Of a stretch of 49,261 nt of DNA, positions 12,062 to 41,941 are shown in pieces. The DNA is taken from the NCBI GenBank assembly GCA_011364925.1, contig RDOA01000025.1, forward strand, positions 1 to 49,261, given 5' to 3'. Source of the stretch: Promethearchaeota archaeon. Its GTDB lineage: Archaea; Asgardarchaeota; Lokiarchaeia; Sigyniarchaeales; SOKP01. A model generated the notes under the pieces. It did no database searches, had not been told where the DNA came from, and saw nothing but the letters and a program-made list of their open reading frames with translations. Position 1 is the first letter of the stretch, and the number at the start of each line of letters is the position of its first letter. The position numbers and the translations under genes are program-made.

Positions 12062-12128
12062 ACTTATATTCATATCTAATTGATAATTTTTAATTGGTTT
12101 ACCGTTTCAGATCCTTTTACATCGGGAT
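12061..12128. repeat. 68-bp repeat, copy 1 (tail of methyltransferase gene)
   Basis: Aligned without gaps to 16434-16501, 56 of 68 bases are the same by my count. The segment covers the last codons of the methyltransferase gene, its TAG stop and about 15 bp beyond. The same segment forms the end of the unrelated EFR1-type gene. The two copies are in the same orientation, about 4.4 kb apart. Confidence 0.7.
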
Positions 12129-12723
12129 TTTTTCCAAAAATCCAATATTGATATTCTCCTCCTCTTTCTAATATACCCTCGGATATGATGGAGAATCCTG
12201 ATTTTTTTATAAGATTAAGAGTGGTTTTTGGGTTAAAATTGCTCCAAAACATCGGGACTCCAAAAAAATTACTTGTGCCTTCTGATTCTGAAATTCCCGT
12301 ATTAATCATTAGGATGCCACCAGGCTTCAAAATTTTAATAAATTGTTTGAAGATGTCTAAATGTTTATTTTTAGGTACGTGAAAAAGCGCATATACGCTT
12401 ATAATTCCATCGAATGAGTTTTCACTGAATTGTAAATCATTCATATCCATTTTGATGAATTCAGCACTAGGAACATTATCTCGAGCTAAATTTAGCATTT
12501 TACCAGATAAATCGATGCCAGTTACTTTAATCCCTCGTTCTATAAGGAATTTTGCAGTAGGAATCCCAGCACCGCATCCTACATCTAAGATATGAGCGTT
12601 TTCTGGAAGATGAGAAGCAAATTCTTCTAATTCATTATTGAATTTACTTAGATTCCTGTGACTATAATAATCTTCAGCGATTCTATCGTATCCTTGTTCT
12701 ACTAGTCTACTTATAGCATTCAT
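12076..12723 (-). CDS. class I SAM-dependent methyltransferase with a borrowed C-terminal tail (215 aa)
   Basis: Residues 44-53 (HILDVGCGAG) are SAM motif I, followed by GIDLSGKML at strand 2 and FDGIISVYALFHVPK at strand 4; PGGILMIN is the post-III motif. It is a small Methyltransf_11/25-type enzyme with unknown acceptor. The last 16 residues (PDVKGSETVNQLKIIN) match the end of the EFR1-type protein encoded at 16449-17366 (PDVKLSEIINQFKTNS), although the two proteins are otherwise unrelated. The end of this gene was therefore probably replaced by recombination. It is the last gene of the minus-strand photolyase block, 111 bp after the Staygreen gene. Confidence 0.85.
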   Translation of the reverse strand: MNAISRLVEQGYDRIAEDYYSHRNLSKFNNELEEFASHLPENAHILDVGCGAGIPTAKFLIERGIKVTGIDLSGKMLNLARDNVPSAEFIKMDMNDLQFSENSFDGIISVYALFHVPKNKHLDIFKQFIKILKPGGILMINTGISESEGTSNFFGVPMFWSNFNPKTTLNLIKKSGFSIISEGILERGGEYQYWIFGKNPDVKGSETVNQLKIIN

Positions 12724-12834
12724 ATGATTAACTATACTAACTAAATCTTAAGAAGGCATGGGTAATTTTTTATTATTAGTCTCACTCTTATCGTTTATAA
12801 AATTAAATCCAATAGAAAGAAGAATTTATATTTT

Positions 12835-13299
12835 TTAACAATGAATATCTTTGATCTGTCCATGATTTTCGATTCTATTATATTTCTTGCTCTTGGATTG
12901 GAAATGTACTATAACCTGAGCGTTTTCAAGCTCTGGCATCGCTTTAATAAGATTCTTATCTCCACATTTAATTGTCTGGAGTACGAGTGGCAAATGATAA
13001 CAAAAGATTTTGTTTCGTAAACCGGTCCAACCAAAACAGAATCCTCCACTAACGTGCATATACAGATGTAGTTCGAATTCACCGTTTTTCTTTTGCCACT
13101 CAGCTAAAACTTCGTCTCTCATGAAACGGGTATATAGACCTGAGATTTGTTCGTAATCGTATTCTGAACCTATCGTAAGGAAAAGATCTCCAGTTGAATC
13201 AGAATGTGTTAATGTGTATTTTCGAGGTAAATCTAACGTGTTTTCAGCTACGGAATCTTTATAAACTACATGCAATTTTTCAGGATTTAGATCGGGCAT
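12835..13299 (-). CDS. Staygreen-domain protein (154 aa)
   Basis: Nearly the whole protein is a Staygreen domain: NPEKLHVVYKDSV, RKYTLTHSDSTGDLFLTIG, the conserved FMRDEVLAEW, LHLYMHVSGGFCFGW, LRNKIFCYHLPLVLQTIKCGD and a final VIVHFQSKS. In plants and algae this family removes Mg from chlorophyll a. Prokaryotic homologues occur in organisms without chlorophyll, and their substrate is not settled. The His and Asp around THSDSTGD and the Cys in GGFCFG are present. The length equals that of single-domain bacterial members. It follows the photolyase gene by 65 bp on the same strand, possibly in the same transcript. Confidence 0.88.
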   Translation of the reverse strand: MPDLNPEKLHVVYKDSVAENTLDLPRKYTLTHSDSTGDLFLTIGSEYDYEQISGLYTRFMRDEVLAEWQKKNGEFELHLYMHVSGGFCFGWTGLRNKIFCYHLPLVLQTIKCGDKNLIKAMPELENAQVIVHFQSKSKKYNRIENHGQIKDIHC

Positions 13300-13364
13300 T
13301 TTTATAAATTATTTAGTCCAGAAGAAGTTTAAACCATTTAATTATGAATTATTAAATTATTGAT

Positions 13365-14699
13365 TTAAATTAAATCAATATATTGTTTTATGTTAAATTT
13401 TCGTTTCATTCCATCATAGCTCATATATCTTATTTTCCCAAAGACTTTTCTCTCGCCCCAAGCTCTATCATGAACACCTCCGATAGACCATGCTATTCCA
13501 GCATAGCCATTAGGGTCTCTTCCATCAAGTTCATATTTATCGTTGAGATAAATTGCGTATTCTACAGCCTTTTCAGGAGTCTCTGTCCATTCAAGAATTT
13601 TTTTTGCCCAATACATCCTAAGATAACCATGCATTTTCCCTCGTTTTATCATTTGACGTTGAGCAGTGTTCCATAGATCATCATGAGTTCTAGCTCTCTC
13701 TAATTCCTCCAAAGTATATTTATAGTCTCGTTTATCTTTTAAATGCTGATTCAAAGTCTCTATTGCCCAAGATTGAAAACTGGCAGTCGTATCATAATCA
13801 GGAGAATAAAAGCAGAAGTTATCTGATAATTCTTTACGTACAATTATTTCGTCATAAAACGAACCCTTGAGATTTATAATTCTTTTTGTCTTCGTCGCTT
13901 CTAGAACAACTCTTTGAGAAGAAATTTGTCCAAAATGTAAATATGGAGATAGATCGGAAACAGAATTTAAATTTGGATCGTTTCTTTCCCTAGTATAATT
14001 TCTAAGCTTTTTCTCAACGAATAATTTCAACACACCTCTTGCTTGATCCTCTCCTGGTCTTATCCAATCAAATGTGTATTTTGGATTATCTTCTGAAACG
14101 AAATTTCTTAGTTTTACCCAATTAACTTCGCTAAAGTTTTCTTTCCAAGAGTACGGGTGTTTCTTAATCTCTGGAAATTCAACTAAAAACTCCGCTAATA
14201 ACTTACTTATTTTTGAACGTATAGTATAGGCTGCATACTCTTTTTTATTAGATGCAATCCAACAAGGGACTATATTATGTGTATCTACTTCACTAAATGA
14301 TACGTTTAATTTACTTCTTAACGATTCAATCCAGTTCCTTTTTATTTTTAATGGAGAAAAGTCTGTTATTAACATACCTATTTTGTATTCCTCAATAAAA
14401 TTCGTTAAAACAGTTCTTGGATCTCCCTTTAGTGCCACAAATGTGATATTAAGTTCAATACAATCTTTTTCTATAATTTCTAATCCATCAAGCATAAAAT
14501 CAAAGATTCTTGGTTCCGCACCTAAAAATTCTTGCTGCAAACAAAAAACAACGATAATTGGTTGTTTATGATTTAATGCTAGTTCTTGAGCATAAATTAA
14601 AGCCCAATTATCTCTAATTCTTTGATCTCGACTCATCCAATATAAGATCGGACCACTGATCTTCTTCTCAAGTATTCTTTTGACTCTTCTATAGTCCAT
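13365..14699 (-). CDS. phr: class II CPD photolyase (444 aa)
   Basis: YWMSRDQRIRDNWAL near the start is the signature of class II photolyases. The C-terminal FAD domain is complete, with ARTHDDLWNTAQRQMIKRGKMHGYLRMYWAKKILEW, then LDGRDPNGYAGIAWSIGGVHDRAW. The enzyme splits UV-made cyclobutane pyrimidine dimers using blue light and reduced FAD. At 444 residues it is of normal size. The ATG at 14699 is 24 bp after the racemase gene, which itself follows the heliorhodopsin gene by about 33 bp, so the three are very likely one transcript led by the rhodopsin. Confidence 0.96.
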   Translation of the reverse strand: MDYRRVKRILEKKISGPILYWMSRDQRIRDNWALIYAQELALNHKQPIIVVFCLQQEFLGAEPRIFDFMLDGLEIIEKDCIELNITFVALKGDPRTVLTNFIEEYKIGMLITDFSPLKIKRNWIESLRSKLNVSFSEVDTHNIVPCWIASNKKEYAAYTIRSKISKLLAEFLVEFPEIKKHPYSWKENFSEVNWVKLRNFVSEDNPKYTFDWIRPGEDQARGVLKLFVEKKLRNYTRERNDPNLNSVSDLSPYLHFGQISSQRVVLEATKTKRIINLKGSFYDEIIVRKELSDNFCFYSPDYDTTASFQSWAIETLNQHLKDKRDYKYTLEELERARTHDDLWNTAQRQMIKRGKMHGYLRMYWAKKILEWTETPEKAVEYAIYLNDKYELDGRDPNGYAGIAWSIGGVHDRAWGERKVFGKIRYMSYDGMKRKFNIKQYIDLI

Positions 14700-14723
14700 A
14701 ATAAGAAATCCCCTTACACTTTT

Positions 14724-15422
14724 TTATGCTAATGAAAAATCTACGGCTGCTTGTAAATGAATTTTTAAGGTATCGAAAAGAGGAACACTTAAATCTTCGG
14801 ATTTAATTAATATAGGAAGTTCCGTACATCCTAGAATTATCCCTTCTGCTCCATTCTGTTTTAAATTTTCAATTATTTTTAATATTTCTTTCTTAGTCGC
14901 TTCAATGAATTTCCCTTTTGCAAACTCATTGTAAATTGCGTTATTAATGTAGTCTCTTTCATTTTTAGCGGGAGTTAAAGCGTTAATGTCATAAGTCTTC
15001 ATAAGTTTCTCAATATAAAAACTTCCTTCCATCGTGAATTTTGTCCCTAATAAGCCGACATCTTTAATATTCATAGATTTTATAACCTTTGCAGTCTCAT
15101 CAACTACATTAATGAGTGGGATTGTAATCTCCACCTCAATTTTGGGTGCAATTTTGTGCATAGTGTTAGAGCAGATTACGATCGCTTTACTTCCAGCTAA
15201 TTCAAGTTTTTTACATATTATAATCATTGTTTTCAATAGATCATCCCATCTATTTTGTTCCTGCAAGAGCAGAACTTCCGCAAAATTTACAGAATACAAT
15301 AAGATCTCTGCTGAATACCACTCACCGAGCCTATCTTTAACCATTTCGTTAATAATTCTATAATAATCGATTGTATTCTCCCAGCTCATGCCCCCAATTA
15401 AGCCTAACAACTTCAAAGTCAT
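14724..15422 (-). CDS. aspartate/glutamate racemase family protein
   Basis: The two catalytic cysteines sit in AIVICSNTMHKI and GIILGCTELPIL, the standard N-terminal and C-terminal halves of the Asp/Glu racemase fold, and the start LGLIGGMSWENTIDYY is typical of this group (RacX/YgeA type). It would interconvert L- and D-amino acids in the cytoplasm with no cofactor. I chose the ATG at 15422; a TTG one codon earlier extends the frame. It lies between the heliorhodopsin and photolyase genes with gaps of about 33 and 24 bp. Confidence 0.92.
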   Translation of the reverse strand: MTLKLLGLIGGMSWENTIDYYRIINEMVKDRLGEWYSAEILLYSVNFAEVLLLQEQNRWDDLLKTMIIICKKLELAGSKAIVICSNTMHKIAPKIEVEITIPLINVVDETAKVIKSMNIKDVGLLGTKFTMEGSFYIEKLMKTYDINALTPAKNERDYINNAIYNEFAKGKFIEATKKEILKIIENLKQNGAEGIILGCTELPILIKSEDLSVPLFDTLKIHLQAAVDFSLA

Positions 15423-15458
15423 CAATCCTATATTTCAATCAAAATAAAAAAAAAAAAT

Positions 15459-16262
15459 TTACGCTGGTTGTAATACTCCAGCGAAGACTAACCATGCTAA
15501 AAGAGTTTTAGACCACAAACTAAGTAGAATGTATCCACGCTCTCCGTACAAGTAATCCTTCCACTTTCCTATTTTTTTATACTGTAAAATCATGTTAATA
15601 GGAAACGTATTGAAGAAAAATATATACGATCCAAAGATAGCCCAAACAAACCATGGAATTTCAGAAACATCTCCATTCCCAAAGAGATATAAAAGAATGA
15701 TTACCCAAGGAATAACTCCAGCAAACACTCCAATGTAAAACGCTGTCCACTTCGTTTTCTCAGTTGTTTGGTTGTGAATTTCCATCATCAAACCTAGAAG
15801 ATTCATTACCGTATTGATACAAAATATCAAAATCATACTTGAAAGGTCATAGACTCCAAAAAACCACGCAATCAAAACTATCATTAAGGATGAACTTAAA
15901 GCGTATTCAAACCACCGAAAGTAATTGATCCTTTCTCCCAGTTTTCTATTATAGAAATTGTTCACTTTAGGTAATACGATTAAAAAATGAGCAATAGCTG
16001 AGAGTAATAAGAACATCGCAACTAAAGGACCTATAGGGACTGTTGTTAATTGTTGGTAATCTGGCATGAGACTTGGAGGTATTACCGCATCATTGTAATA
16101 GAGATAAGATGTAGTGATCGGTAACTTAAAATCTCTTATTTCAGGAATTGTATAAGATAAAATCACCATTATGCTCGCTTGTATCAAGTGTAGAAATCCC
16201 ATAATCAGGTTAAAACGTCTTAAATACGAAAAACTGATTTTTGAATCAATTTTTTCATTCAT
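15459..16262 (-). CDS. heliorhodopsin (267 aa)
   Basis: Seven membrane helices with the heliorhodopsin, not type-1 pump, signatures: RRFNLIMGFLHLIQ in helix 1, NYFRWFEYALSSSLM in helix 3, GERGYILLSLWSKTLLAWLVF in helix 7. Counting from the ATG at 16262, Lys252 is the expected retinal Schiff-base lysine, Glu119 the counterion, and His25 and His92 the inner polar pair; the Glu-His spacing of 27 equals that of the founding protein 48C12. The family is inverted in the membrane (N-terminus inside) and acts as a slow light sensor or enzyme regulator; published work links it to photolyase. The frame can also begin at GTG 16271. It is the first gene of the racemase/photolyase transcript. Confidence 0.94.
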   Translation of the reverse strand: MNEKIDSKISFSYLRRFNLIMGFLHLIQASIMVILSYTIPEIRDFKLPITTSYLYYNDAVIPPSLMPDYQQLTTVPIGPLVAMFLLLSAIAHFLIVLPKVNNFYNRKLGERINYFRWFEYALSSSLMIVLIAWFFGVYDLSSMILIFCINTVMNLLGLMMEIHNQTTEKTKWTAFYIGVFAGVIPWVIILLYLFGNGDVSEIPWFVWAIFGSYIFFFNTFPINMILQYKKIGKWKDYLYGERGYILLSLWSKTLLAWLVFAGVLQPA

Positions 16263-16433: not shown

Positions 16434-16501
16434 AATTCATATTCATATCTAACTGTTAGTTTTAAATTGATTTATTATTTCAGATAGTTTTACATCGGGA
16501 T
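16434..16501. repeat. 68-bp repeat, copy 2 (tail of EFR1-type gene)
   Basis: This direct copy of 12061-12128 (56/68 identical, no gaps) spans the last codons, the TAG stop and about 15 downstream bases of the EFR1-type gene. A HHPDVKL-type ending looks natural for EFR1 proteins, so this is probably the donor copy. That is my inference. Confidence 0.7.
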
Positions 16502-17366
16502 GGTGATATTTTTTATTATACGCTACGATCTCCCCATAAACTGCATCATTAGGACACCACACATAACACGCATAGCATGTTTCACAGCGATGCTGCCATA
16601 CAGGGCTATTATTTACCATTTTGATGTTTCCCACCGGGCATAATTTTGAGCAAATTCCACATCCATTGCATTTTTCGTTGACAGAAAAACTTTTATCTGC
16701 AAGATGGATAAGATCTTCAAAATCAAATAGGGTTTTGCCTTCAGAATTCTGCTTAGATACTTCAGCAAGGTTTTTATATCGAGAACGGAATGTGAACTTG
16801 GATAGACTAACAAGAGGCTTAAAAGGTGATCGTGTTGTCTCAAATATTCCTTCTTCGCGATTTTTTATACTTTTTATTATGATCTTAAGTTTTTTCTCCC
16901 ACGCATCGTAGAGTTCTTTTTGCTTATTGGAATCCTTTAGGACTTCTTCTCCAGAGTTAATCTCCCTACGAAAAAGCGCTCTCTTCATTTTTAATCCCGG
17001 GGAATATGGAACCGACAGTTGTATCGCAAACCCTGATGCTAATTTTATACCCTTTTGCTCTAGTAAAAGCTGTAATTGTTCAATTGTTTTCCTTGGACCA
17101 CCTGCGTGAGTACACACTGCAAACAAGTATGTAGAATAAGGGATTTTTAGCTTCTTCACAAACCTTTTAAGTATAAGTGGAATACCTCCAAAATCTGCGT
17201 AAAAAACGGGGAATATAATTCCGACAATATCTGCTGTAGTCGTTATGGTCTCTTTTTCGATAGTTGAAGATATCGAAATTAGTTCCCCATCCAAAATCCT
17301 TGCGATATCTTTTGCAACAACTAACGAATTTCCTGTTCCAGTGAAATAATAAATTTCTGAATTCAT
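16449..17366 (-). CDS. EFR1-type flavodoxin-ferredoxin fusion protein (305 aa)
   Basis: The N-terminal half is a flavodoxin domain: IYYFTGTGNSLVVAKDIA is the FMN phosphate loop and TADIVGIIFPVFYADFGGIPLIL the second loop. The C-terminal 75 residues carry two [4Fe-4S] motifs, CNGCGICSKLCPVGNI and CETCYACYVWCP. This domain order is that of EFR1-family flavo-ferredoxins common in anaerobes, soluble electron carriers of unknown partner. Its start lies 165 bp from the divergent acetyltransferase gene. Its end matches the tail of the methyltransferase at 12076. Confidence 0.9.
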   Translation of the reverse strand: MNSEIYYFTGTGNSLVVAKDIARILDGELISISSTIEKETITTTADIVGIIFPVFYADFGGIPLILKRFVKKLKIPYSTYLFAVCTHAGGPRKTIEQLQLLLEQKGIKLASGFAIQLSVPYSPGLKMKRALFRREINSGEEVLKDSNKQKELYDAWEKKLKIIIKSIKNREEGIFETTRSPFKPLVSLSKFTFRSRYKNLAEVSKQNSEGKTLFDFEDLIHLADKSFSVNEKCNGCGICSKLCPVGNIKMVNNSPVWQHRCETCYACYVWCPNDAVYGEIVAYNKKYHHPDVKLSEIINQFKTNS

Positions 17367-31764: not shown

Positions 31765-32856
31765 TTAAAAGTTTGATTTTTTCTTATTGATAATGAAAAT
31801 TATTCCGATGATGAAGCCCATGCTACCGAATAAAACGAGAAACACATCATATCCGGGTATTCCTGAAGGCGTTGGTAGACAACTCATAAGAGGGAATCGG
31901 TCTTGACTTCCGGCAATTCCCGTTATATTATATGGAACATCTCCTATTCCATCACCGTTCGCATCAGTCCCATTATAAGCGTCCCAATAATTTCCTCTCG
32001 CTCCATTGTCCCAAGTATTATCAAATCCATTATCGTTAGCATCCTCAGTGTTAGTGAAAAAACAATTCTCATAGAACCTGTTATCTCCACACAATGTACT
32101 AATGAATACTCCAAGAATAGAGCTGTTGGTAATGCGATTACCTCTCACTGTATTATTGTCTGAGAACGCGTCTATATTAATCCCTATGGTATTGTTATAA
32201 AAGTTGTTATCGGAGATGGTGTTAAATATAGTCGCTCCACCTAAGAAATATATCCCCGAGTCAAGATTATACGCAATTACATTATTCGATATCAAATTAT
32301 TCTTCGTAATTCCCATTGTCGATTCGACGATGATTCCGTAAAAACTACCTCTGGAAGCGTTATTATTTTGAACGACATTATAACTCGAATTAAACAGCCA
32401 TACTAAAGCTCCAGTAAACGCATGCATCCAATTTTTAGAAATGACTCCGTTCGTAGTGTTATATAGCCAGATCCCTGCCCAAGAAGAATGACCCTTAAAC
32501 TCACAATCTTTGATAACAAAATGCTTCCTTGAATTCATAATTGCCAGTTGATTCGTAGAGATAGTAGGTGCATTAAAGTAAATCTCTGAGATCACATAAG
32601 GATTTAATAGAGTGCCTGAGCCAGTACAATACCCTTGAGCTTTCGCCCAAGTCCAATTTATTGGGCTACCGGGTAAATCATTGATTACTAATGTCGTATT
32701 TATCTCAGTGAGAGCAGAGGTGTTCAATTTACTTGCTGGACTCTGTTTTCTATCGGAGCCAATAGGTGTTGAGATAAGGCTTAGAAACAGAGGCATACTA
32801 ACGCTTGAAACAATTAAAATAAAAATTATAGAAAATGTACTTTTTCGCATCTTCAT
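31765..32856 (-). CDS. cell-surface NosD-like parallel beta-helix protein, copy A (363 aa)
   Basis: A signal peptide (residues 1-28, STFSIIFILIVSSVSMPLF) is followed by about ten turns of a right-handed beta-helix, rich in Asn and Gly (NNASRGSFYGIIVES, NVIAYNLDSGIYFL, NNFYNNTIGINI). A loop DANGDGIGD resembles a calcium-binding EF-hand loop. The end is SGIPGYD, a membrane helix and KKK, a tail that looks like a sorting or anchor signal. Such proteins are exported and bind sugars or metals. It is a tandem duplicate of the next gene, with 114 bp between. Confidence 0.85.
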   Translation of the reverse strand: MKMRKSTFSIIFILIVSSVSMPLFLSLISTPIGSDRKQSPASKLNTSALTEINTTLVINDLPGSPINWTWAKAQGYCTGSGTLLNPYVISEIYFNAPTISTNQLAIMNSRKHFVIKDCEFKGHSSWAGIWLYNTTNGVISKNWMHAFTGALVWLFNSSYNVVQNNNASRGSFYGIIVESTMGITKNNLISNNVIAYNLDSGIYFLGGATIFNTISDNNFYNNTIGINIDAFSDNNTVRGNRITNSSILGVFISTLCGDNRFYENCFFTNTEDANDNGFDNTWDNGARGNYWDAYNGTDANGDGIGDVPYNITGIAGSQDRFPLMSCLPTPSGIPGYDVFLVLFGSMGFIIGIIFIINKKKSNF

Positions 32857-32970
32857 CTTCTTCGAAGTTAATGCTTGATTATAAAGTTATTAAAAATTTT
32901 TTTATTTATTATTATGTATCACTCGAAGAGTTTTACTAATTAAAAAAAAGGGGAGAATTATTTACTCCAT

Positions 32971-34068
32971 TTAAGCTTTTAAAATTTTCTTCTTTCTTAT
33001 CACAATAATTCCAATAATAGAGGCAATTCCTGCAATGAAAACGATAATTAGACTATATCCCGGGATTCCACTCGGAGTTGGTGGAGCAGGACACTTCATG
33101 AGGGGAAAGAGATCTTGACTCCCGGCACTTCCCGTGATATTATAAGGAATTTCACCTATACCATCGCTGTTTGCATCAGATCCTGTGTAATTATCCCAGT
33201 AATTTCCTTTCGCACCGTTATCCCAAAAGTTACCTAATCCATTGTCAATCGCATGAAGTGTATTTGTAATGAAACAATTTTCAAAGACTAAATTGTATTC
33301 ACTAAGAGTATTTAAAATTACACCTGTTACATAGCTATTCCTAATTACATTCCCTTTAATGGTGTTATTAGTTACAAATGAGTTAACATCAATCCCTAAT
33401 GTATTGTTACTAAAATCGTTATCAGATATAGTATTAAAAATGGAACCGATTCTAATCTGTACACCAGCGTCATTATTATTAGCGATTACATTGTCCGTAA
33501 CCACATTATCTCTAGAGATACCCCCCGCAGAATCAATTAATACACCATAATAAGAACCATAGGAAGCGTTATTGTTTCTAATAACATTGTCGCTCGAATT
33601 AAATACCCAAACAAGAGCTCCAGTATTTGGATGCATCATATTACCCGTAATAACTCCGTTCGTAGTGTTGGCTAATTCAATGCCGGCAAATTGACTGTGT
33701 CCCTTAAACTCACAATTTCTTACAATAAAATGCTTTCTTGAGTCAATAATCGTTAAACTATTATAACCAGCTAAGGATGTGTTGAAAAATTTTCCCGAAA
33801 TGATGTAGGGGTTAACTACTGTACCTAAACCCGTACAATACCCTTGATCCTTTGCCCATGTCCAATTTAAAGGACTACCGGGAAGATCATCGATGATAAT
33901 TGTCGTGTTTATCTCCGTGAGAGCAGAGGTGTTCAAATTACTTACCTCACTTTGCGCTCTATCGAAATTCCTAGCAGTTGAGATAAGCATAGGAAATATT
34001 GGCGTGATAAGACTCGAAATAAATAATATTAATAGTATTGAAAATGTTGTCTTTCGCATCTTAATCAT
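32971..34068 (-). CDS. cell-surface NosD-like parallel beta-helix protein, copy B (365 aa)
   Basis: It has the same build as the neighbouring copy A: signal peptide (TTFSILLILFISSLITPIF), repeated N-rich beta-helix turns (SYGSYYGVLIDSA, NVIANNNDAGVQIRIG, NDFSNNTLGIDVN), the DANSDGIGE calcium-loop-like segment (degenerate compared with copy A) and the ending SGIPGYS, membrane helix, RKKK. The two proteins align along their whole length, so this is a recent tandem duplication. The divergence is strongest in the middle turns, which form the exposed face. Confidence 0.85.
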   Translation of the reverse strand: MIKMRKTTFSILLILFISSLITPIFPMLISTARNFDRAQSEVSNLNTSALTEINTTIIIDDLPGSPLNWTWAKDQGYCTGLGTVVNPYIISGKFFNTSLAGYNSLTIIDSRKHFIVRNCEFKGHSQFAGIELANTTNGVITGNMMHPNTGALVWVFNSSDNVIRNNNASYGSYYGVLIDSAGGISRDNVVTDNVIANNNDAGVQIRIGSIFNTISDNDFSNNTLGIDVNSFVTNNTIKGNVIRNSYVTGVILNTLSEYNLVFENCFITNTLHAIDNGLGNFWDNGAKGNYWDNYTGSDANSDGIGEIPYNITGSAGSQDLFPLMKCPAPPTPSGIPGYSLIIVFIAGIASIIGIIVIRKKKILKA

Positions 34069-39862: not shown

Positions 39863-41941
39863 TTAGATACTCGTTAAATCAATCGTAGTATATACCGCTG
39901 GGTGGTCTGATTGGTAATCACCAGTATAATGGATAAATGTAACGGATGCATTCAATTGTGACGATACAAATATGTGGTCTATTCTTTCATCTGGGATTAT
40001 ACGGTCGCCGGGTAGATTTGGATCAACAACTGCATATGCTGGATTAGAATTGTATACTAATTCCCAACAATCGTAGAGTTGAGCAACCGTTATATTATAT
40101 TGCTCAGTATTTGGCTCAAAATTAAAGTCACCCATTAAAATGACGTTTGATCTTCCCGCGGTGACGGTTAAAAGATTCTCTTGTTGGACGATCTGAGTTC
40201 TATCACCTAACGTTGTGTTTCTATAATTACCGAGGTGGGTGACGAAAATGTTGAATGTATTGGTACCAACAATAATCTGAGCCCAAATTGCTGCAGTTTG
40301 TTCTCCTACGCTTTCCATATAAAAGGTGCGAGGATTCAGAATTGGATATTTTGATAATAAGGCGATTCCAAACGTACCAGTAACAGTCTTAGGTCCGAAA
40401 TACGAATAATACCCCAATGATTCGCTAATATACCGGACAATATCGTTATTACCGTTTGCTATTCGATCTGTGTCTGACTCTACTAAGCCAACAATATCTG
40501 GGTTTAAGATATCAATAACGGCACGCTGTCCCTCAAAATTCAAATTTCCAGGTTCATCAGCTCCTTGTTGGATATTGTAGGATAGTATTGAAAGAGTATC
40601 ATCATTAGCAGTAGGGCGAATATGGGGTATTCCAAGAACTCCGCAACTTATTATCGTTCCTAAGGCGATAATTACGATTACGCCAATAGTTTTAAATATT
40701 TTCCCTGTGTTAATCCTAGAAATCTTGTTAAAGATGAAAGCTTCTCTCTTAACTAACAATAACGGCCAAACTATGAACGCACCTATAACTAAATATACAA
40801 GCCAAATCATATCTCTAAAGAGTGGCCCAACTAATGGGATGTAATCCCACACAGTAGTAAAAACGGCTGAGAATATGATAAGAACCGAAAATAAACTCGA
40901 CGCAAAAAAACCTGCTCCCATTTTCCGAGTTGAGGGTCTGCTTCTGAACAATTCCCTTAGTAAAATTACGAAATCAAACAAGACAATTGGCGATAAAACA
41001 AGCATTATGTAAAGAACTATATGGTGTAAAATCGTGGTTTCAGGAGCGAGTATTGGATAACTGGTTATAAAGACAAAGGGAATTTGATTAAGACCAATCG
41101 TGAGCACAAGCAATGTCACAAATATGATATTCCATAGCAATATACCTTTACTTGGGATTTTCGTGATTAAATTCGGCTTTACCGCTGCAACGATAATAAA
41201 CCCCGTGATCGCCAATATTACTATCGTGATAATAGCCAAGTAATCCCCCTCTGTCCATCGCGCAATGACGACAGGACTACTAAAAGCGAAATAACACAGA
41301 ATTAGTATGCTGAATAAGCCCATACACAGAGCTAAAATTTTCCATTTACTACCGTATTTTCCTTTATCGCTTGTCTTTTCCGTATCAGCTTCAGTTTTAG
41401 GAGGCCGCAATAAATTTATGGTTAAAATCGCCGCAATAATCGCAAGAATCCATCCAATCCATTGAAACCCAAATGTTAAGGTCAAATCAACCGAATAGTT
41501 AAGCGTTCTAAACAATATTGACAACGCTAGTCCAAAACCTAAACTAATTCCGAGCGATAATCCGCCTTCTTCACTACTCTTATGAGACCTTTTTTGAAGA
41601 TACACCGCCAAAAATAGTAAAAAGGTGCCAAGACCAATTCCGGTAAGAATCATCTTTATTTGGGTACCAAAAAACGGTTGTAAAACTCGGCAAACGATCG
41701 TAATCTCAGCAAGCACCACCATCGCTTTTTTAGAAAGTCCCTTTTTAAAAAACAGCAGCACGATTGGAGAAAGTAGAAATAATACCGCTGCGATATTTTC
41801 GTTTATTCCCGTGATAATAAGGTTTAAAAGATAAATCGACTCGATAAACTTGGTTATCTGTTCGAAAAAGAAGAAAAACAGAATGCCAAAAAGGACTATT
41901 TCAGAATAATATTTGCCTAAATATTTTTTATAGATTTCCAT
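39863..41941 (-). CDS. CWH43/PGAP2IP-like membrane protein with endonuclease/exonuclease/phosphatase domain (692 aa)
   Basis: The first ~430 residues hold about 12 membrane helices; the last 250 are an EEP-fold domain: TLSILSYNIQQG, VGLVESDTDRIANGNNDIVRYI with the catalytic Glu, HLGNYR, G604-D-F-N607 and the final SDHPAV with Asp-His. The ESD-x(n)-GNND signature, GPKTVTGTFGIALLSKYPI and FNIFVTHLGN are those of eukaryotic CWH43/PGAP2IP, which remodel GPI-anchor lipids. The domain order is the same. A role in lipid-linked sugar or phospholipid modification at the membrane is likely by homology; GPI itself is not expected. The domain assignment rests on motif reading. Confidence 0.8.
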   Translation of the reverse strand: MEIYKKYLGKYYSEIVLFGILFFFFFEQITKFIESIYLLNLIITGINENIAAVLFLLSPIVLLFFKKGLSKKAMVVLAEITIVCRVLQPFFGTQIKMILTGIGLGTFLLFLAVYLQKRSHKSSEEGGLSLGISLGFGLALSILFRTLNYSVDLTLTFGFQWIGWILAIIAAILTINLLRPPKTEADTEKTSDKGKYGSKWKILALCMGLFSILILCYFAFSSPVVIARWTEGDYLAIITIVILAITGFIIVAAVKPNLITKIPSKGILLWNIIFVTLLVLTIGLNQIPFVFITSYPILAPETTILHHIVLYIMLVLSPIVLFDFVILLRELFRSRPSTRKMGAGFFASSLFSVLIIFSAVFTTVWDYIPLVGPLFRDMIWLVYLVIGAFIVWPLLLVKREAFIFNKISRINTGKIFKTIGVIVIIALGTIISCGVLGIPHIRPTANDDTLSILSYNIQQGADEPGNLNFEGQRAVIDILNPDIVGLVESDTDRIANGNNDIVRYISESLGYYSYFGPKTVTGTFGIALLSKYPILNPRTFYMESVGEQTAAIWAQIIVGTNTFNIFVTHLGNYRNTTLGDRTQIVQQENLLTVTAGRSNVILMGDFNFEPNTEQYNITVAQLYDCWELVYNSNPAYAVVDPNLPGDRIIPDERIDHIFVSSQLNASVTFIHYTGDYQSDHPAVYTTIDLTSI

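Follow-up and report, generated by a model that had tools for sequence, protein, structure and literature searches.

Heliorhodopsin and Staygreen genes form a conserved partnership around a Lokiarchaeal gene block

The window analyzed here, a stretch of 49,261 nucleotides, is contig C33 (RDOA01000025.1) of a 3.9 Mb Asgard genome assigned to Promethearchaeota archaeon (GCA_011364925.1). On its minus strand it carries a block of four genes encoding a heliorhodopsin (HeR), an amino-acid racemase, a class II cyclobutane pyrimidine dimer (CPD) photolyase and a Staygreen-type protein (SGR). Comparison with other genomes reveals that HeR and SGR form a conserved gene partnership. With moderate confidence, we read the block as a Lokiarchaeal island for light and photo-oxidative stress, the core new element of which is the partnership of HeR with a Staygreen-type Mg-dechelatase.

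Among 228 Asgard genomes, 60 carry HeR, 49 carry SGR and 36 carry both, compared to 12.9 expected (Fisher 1.5e-15). A permutation stratified by genus gave 21.4 expected genomes with both genes, and the observed 36 were reached in 0 of 100000 permutations; some genus strata were inferred from the order of genome handles, and the incompleteness of metagenome-assembled genomes (MAGs) inflates co-absence. In genus g1, SGR is found in 9 of 11 genomes with HeR and in none of the 13 without, and in genus g8 in all 13 genomes with HeR compared to one of six without; that single case, in G122, is a broken SGR remnant. The association in g8 holds although the two genes mostly lie far apart. When only genomes of at least 85% completeness are counted, the figures are 9/10 versus 0/8 for g1 and 12/12 versus 0/3 for g8. 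HeR and SGR lie no more than 3 kb apart in 11 Asgard genomes (G000, G114, G121, G133, G138, G045-G048, G052 and G056) and about 4 kb apart in G146 and G147, and the close pairs occur in co-directional, divergent and mixed orientations.

A search of genome contigs extended the comparison beyond Asgard archaea and returned 302 SGR relatives, the best 80 of which were examined. The closest named relatives of the window in this set are Lokiarchaeota MAGs, and HeR stands near or directly before SGR in Dehalococcoidales (L223, L227, L204), Anaerolineae (L236, L251, L217) and Bathyarchaeota (L233). HeR is present in 26 of 40 non-Asgard genomes with SGR, compared to 14 of 140 Anaerolineae genomes drawn from the class at large; SGR occurs in five of the latter and both genes in four (p ~0.0025, by hypergeometric arithmetic with the centre genome excluded). 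In G314, an SGR gene cut by the contig end lies 125 bp after HeR. The studied homologue AbSGR-h shares zero-length branches with L214 in the SGR tree, and the genome of this locus (G234) carries HeR as well as, close to SGR, a gene of the TspO family. The sequence-only reading had raised the Staygreen protein as a possible new part of a light response; co-occurrence and proximity in Asgard archaea and linkage outside them speak for it far more strongly than could be foreseen from the window.

A quick HeR tree of 89 rows requires 11 changes in SGR adjacency, distributed over several HeR lineages, and places the HeRs of Lokiarchaeota in three distant types. In the SGR tree, one Lokiarchaeal clade (97*) includes species with HeR types A, B and C. 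As judged from these trees, SGR persisted through replacement of the HeR type and the two genes either remained paired or came together again, a history that one inherited cassette hardly explains. Joint transfer of a single HeR-SGR cassette as the sole cause is not favoured, since the two trees disagree. The same patterns bear on an explanation by ecology only, in which HeR, SGR, photolyase and the repair endonuclease UvdE would be independent genes for life with light and phytodetritus, co-selected on shared islands without sensor-effector coupling. We consider this rather unlikely, but it accommodates the repeated replacement of the HeR type, the variable gene orders and the finding that UvdE and photolyase likewise track HeR and SGR within genera. 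It accounts less well for HeR-SGR proximity that recurs on several separate HeR lineages, for immediate adjacency in G121, G046-G048, L223 and L251, and for HeR-SGR being the strongest of the pairs tested.

Rhodopsins of another kind also occur beside SGR. In the HeR-less Hermodarchaeota genomes G067 and G069, SGR is flanked by photolyase on one side and a type-1 rhodopsin on the other, and these loci (G067:C17:46696-50381, L163; G069:C64:13823-17547, L162) further hold a peroxiredoxin and a fasciclin-domain gene, as if the kind of rhodopsin were interchangeable. The SGR remnant of G122, a Lokiarchaeal genome without HeR, lies 3.6 kb from a type-1 rhodopsin (G122:C1:1564848-1569264). As a genome-level correlate of SGR, type-1 rhodopsin was rejected: its association is weak within genera (28368/100000), though the genes are physically linked in Hermodarchaeota.

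The block and its immediate surroundings comprise the following features (window coordinates).

15459 to 16262, minus strand: heliorhodopsin (HeR), 267 aa, with Lys252 for retinal, counterion Glu119 and the pair His25/His92; assigned by family profiles, closest solved structure TaHeR (6IS6).
15446 to 15457, minus strand: T12 tract resembling an archaeal terminator, one base past the HeR stop.
14724 to 15425, minus strand: Asp/Glu-type amino-acid racemase, broad-specificity and YgeA-like (TIGR00035), with Cys85 and Cys200 in the catalytic motifs.
13365 to 14699, minus strand: class II CPD DNA photolyase (TIGR00591, 612 bits), close to Methanosarcina mazei 2XRY.
13342 to 13354, minus strand: candidate operator TAATAATTCATAA, a TAAT-N5-ATWA dyad upstream of SGR, present at 18/26 Lokiarchaeal SGR genes versus 12% of all genes.
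13327 to 13335, minus strand: TATA-like box GGTTTAAAC of the putative SGR promoter, kept in 17 distinct Lokiarchaeal SGR upstream regions.
12835 to 13299, minus strand: putative Staygreen-type Mg-dechelatase (SGR) with THSDST motif, Asp34 and Asp62, aligning end to end with AbSGR-h (7Y5Y).
12763 to 12775, minus strand: dyad TAATAAAAAATTA upstream of the methyltransferase gene, the same as the SGR dyad; exact dyad at 14/21 Lokiarchaeal homologues.
12076 to 12723, minus strand: class I S-adenosylmethionine-dependent methyltransferase (MT1), the constant downstream partner of SGR in Lokiarchaeota.

Open reading frames, profiles and alignments confirm what had been read from the letters alone, namely four minus-strand genes spaced by 33, 24 and 65 bp with intact active-site residues. 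The HeR scores 320 bits with the Pfam Heliorhodopsin profile PF18761 and 307 bits with NF038020, above cut-off. The Schiff-base Lys252 and the counterion Glu119 are present in 90/90 aligned HeRs, H25 in 82/90 and H92 in 84/90. By profile and by the Lys/Glu residues the protein is classified as a heliorhodopsin (type-3 rhodopsin), with inverted topology and retinal binding predicted by homology to solved HeRs. Its gene starts with ATG, and an in-frame GTG lies 9 nt further upstream. The racemase reaches 238 bits with TIGR00035 asp_race (cut-off 93) and the photolyase exceeds the TIGR00591 cut-off of 550 bits. Photolyase residues 4-442 align with M. mazei-type class II structures (best solved relatives 8OET/2XRY), including the Trp residues of the conserved chain in the LWN and MYWAKKILEW motifs. 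The SGR scores 166 bits with PF12638 and retains Arg95 besides the residues listed above. It is a Staygreen-type Mg-dechelatase by family, Mg removal from chlorophyll having been shown only for homologues. AbSGR-h removes Mg from both chlorophyll a and chlorophyllide a and requires Asp34 and Asp62 to do so (PMC8531759, PMC11006732), and its specificity is broad (PMC11006732). MT1 was considered as a chlorophyll-pathway enzyme and rejected, as its profile matches are to generic methyltransferases only.

The same genes recur jointly in relatives, so their grouping is not due to chance. Gene order is conserved in part: the exact four-gene order was seen in the window only, and relatives hold the same genes with others in between. 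The HeR-racemase pair is retained in G134, G143, G146 and G147. In G143 the order is HeR, racemase, photolyase and SGR-methyltransferase with other genes interspersed, and G124 resembles it from the racemase onward, HeR being cut off by the contig end. A photolyase-TudS/DUF1722-racemase arrangement is found without HeR in G131 and G155 and together with SGR in G154, and G122 has photolyase-TudS with the racemase upstream. The most constant pair is SGR-methyltransferase, with a gap of 107-113 bp and in one case 157. Because relatives hold the same genes in varied orders, the compact block of the window is best seen as one arrangement of a recurrent island. Its racemase is a lineage-restricted associate; confined to one Lokiarchaeal subset, where it more often accompanies photolyase and the TudS-DUF1722 gene, it was rejected as a universal HeR partner, and nothing was found in support of the suggested D-amino-acid signal. 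In Lokiarchaeota (L140, L141, L142, L143), the fusion of TudS (2-thiouracil desulfurase) with DUF1722 repeatedly accompanies class II photolyase and racemase, and in Chloroflexota and Bathyarchaeota (L217, L233, L236) it accompanies HeR-SGR. A related arrangement is ybgA-phr of E. coli, in which a DUF1722 gene adjoins photolyase. Relatives of the window locus likewise carry TudS-DUF1722 between photolyase and racemase, whereas the window block is devoid of this gene. An EFR1-family ferredoxin gene (window 16449-17366, minus strand) precedes HeR on its strand at a distance of 177 bp and is not at that place in the relatives examined.

A single transcript for the four genes, as initially proposed, is not supported. 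An operon of HeR, racemase, photolyase and SGR, in which HeR would bind and boost photolyase and the racemase would make a D-amino-acid signal, is suggested by the tight gaps on one strand and by a photolyase of class II, as in the TfHeR case (PMC9769723). We regard it as very unlikely, given the T12 tract after HeR with its equivalents in relatives, the separate promoter of SGR, the unconserved block order and the absence of a class II photolyase-HeR association within genera g1 and g8 taken alone. A scan for sigma-70-type promoters was discarded as operon evidence because it performed no better than shuffles (23 matches versus 25.6); the question was judged instead by archaeal T-tracts and conserved upstream blocks. 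The T12 tract is the longest T run after any gene of the window, all others having at most nine, and T9-T18 tracts occupy the equivalent place after HeR in G147, G134, G146, G114 and G121. Across Lokiarchaeal loci, runs of at least eight T follow 17% of genes with a convergent neighbour versus 4% of those whose next gene points the same way at a distance below 40 bp, and runs of at least 12 follow 1% of the latter. HeR is thus probably terminated apart from the downstream genes; it shares its strand with photolyase, and the racemase gene and the T12 tract stand between them.

The block TAATAATTCATAA...GGTTTAAAC upstream of SGR is conserved in the 17 distinct Lokiarchaeal sequences despite a differing upstream gene (in the window photolyase; in G147, G134 and G146 a divergent major facilitator superfamily transporter). 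This argues for a promoter of its own, and SGR is probably a separate transcription unit. Within the retrieved loci, to which all operator counts refer, the exact dyad also precedes 5/9 ATP10-like genes, which often adjoin HeR, as well as the SGR-partner methyltransferases, compared to 6% of all genes; control dyads yielded no such trio. The block may be coordinated as co-regulated neighbouring units and not as one transcript. The ATP10-like protein (PF05176; 152 aa, cluster c9; L080, L087, L088, L100, L103, L109, L115, L117) is a frequent HeR neighbour with a TAAT-N5-ATTA dyad upstream.

The proposed tie of HeR to repair of ultraviolet DNA damage is upheld by within-genus co-occurrence, by neighbouring genes and by a photolyase of the same class as that bound by TfHeR. 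HeR co-occurs with UvdE or class II photolyase within genera in 31 cases compared to 19.3 expected (0/100000), and 14 of the 60 Asgard genomes with HeR have UvdE or a photolyase in its vicinity. In Lokiarchaeota and Hodarchaeota, UvdE is found within a few genes of HeR (L085, L086, L089, L112, L118, L119, L121, L125, L126, L128), apparently as a substitute for class II photolyase. That HeR occurs with photolyase and UvdE has been published (PMC8612252, PMC11109279, PMC9769723). TfHeR of Trichococcus binds class II photolyase and makes it about three times as active, Arg162 and Lys227 being the residues named for binding (PMC9769723). The TfHeR-class II CPD photolyase operon and the 'photolyase' group of HeR operons (PMC11109279) resemble the window in having HeR near the same photolyase class on one strand; the window block adds Staygreen and racemase, its HeR is probably terminated separately, and HeR-photolyase binding would be assumed here by analogy. 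In Thermoplasmatales, the neighbourhoods of Znf-HeR contain photolyase, UvdE and carotenoid genes (PMC8612252) and likewise join an archaeal HeR to repair genes, whereas the window locus lacks carotenoid genes and has SGR in addition. Peroxiredoxin is found close to SGR in Thorarchaeota and Hermodarchaeota, and outside Asgard archaea the neighbours of SGR include MsrA, MsrB, TspO/MBR, peroxiredoxin, photolyase and TudS-DUF1722. The common theme of HeR and SGR neighbours is photo-oxidative damage.

In the light-stress island that we favour, HeR would report light, using retinal obtained from outside, in line with the failure to find retinal or carotenoid synthesis: the window genome contains no phytoene synthase, and a PF15461 search of 224 Asgard genomes gave no retinal synthase of the Blh type. 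Class II photolyase would repair CPDs, possibly stimulated by HeR binding as in Trichococcus. Chlorophyll-type pigments from phototroph debris would reach the cell as photosensitisers, and SGR would strip their Mg and commit them to breakdown. Regulation, HeR binding and the SGR substrate are presumed for this block. A bolder version, which we put forward as doubtful, is that HeR directly regulates, by binding, SGR or its membrane-held substrate, forming a cross-domain light-controlled module for pigment demetallation that was the original function of prokaryotic SGR before plants recruited it for chlorophyll breakdown.

Several points weigh against the light-stress island. The PF15461 search had no positive control among 14 reference genomes. 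SGR occurs without HeR in 13 of the 49 Asgard SGR genomes and also in Clostridium and Alicyclobacillus. A shared habitat with light and phytodetritus can yield co-occurrence without regulatory coupling, and some relatives, such as the Yap isolates, may come from dark sediment. The exact dyad was found upstream of no HeR (0/27), racemase or photolyase gene, so that control of HeR by the SGR operator was rejected; the motif was recognised only after the fact and homologous promoters do not count as independent cases, which leaves the dyad as a lead only. Lastly, chlorophyll is unproven as the native substrate of prokaryotic SGR. This substrate could instead be an endogenous metal-tetrapyrrole, with SGR serving the homeostasis of tetrapyrroles or metals; rhodopsins would then be linked to it because free tetrapyrroles photosensitise the cell. 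We hold this to be unlikely: the HeR-less Clostridium and Alicyclobacillus, the porphyrin-binding TspO among SGR neighbours and the broad specificity of AbSGR-h (PMC11006732) agree with it, but the characterised homologue shows its highest activity on chlorophyll-type substrates and the catalytic residues of the window SGR are unchanged.

Elsewhere in the window, a 692-aa protein (39863-41941, minus strand) matches in its C-terminal domain the eukaryotic PGAP2IP nuclease-like domain (PF23226, 94 bits). Downstream of each of two adjoining genes of 363 and 365 aa (31765-34068, minus strand) comes a short inverted repeat (GGAG...CTCC) with T8, resembling a hairpin terminator.

AbSGR-h (PDB 7Y5Y) belongs to the same family as the window SGR, with identical Asp34/Asp62 numbering and the THSDST motif; in the accessible parts of the reports it is treated as an enzyme, with no physiological context and no link to rhodopsin (PMC8531759, PMC11006732). 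The open-access literature held no joint mention of heliorhodopsin with staygreen or with chlorophyll degradation, although the Figshare tables of PMC8612252 and subscription papers, which lay outside this scope, could list the pair. The HeR-SGR link thus appears to be unreported in the searchable literature. It joins two questions, the function of heliorhodopsins and the reason why prokaryotes without photosynthesis retain a homologue of the chlorophyll Mg-dechelatase. The prokaryotic SGR lineage is thought to be the source of the plant enzyme, and the Lokiarchaeon that hosts the block is an archaeal relative of eukaryotes. Spanning Asgard archaea, Bathyarchaeota and Chloroflexota, the partnership places both proteins in a shared and testable context, protection from light and from photosensitising pigments, and with it gives a clue to their role.

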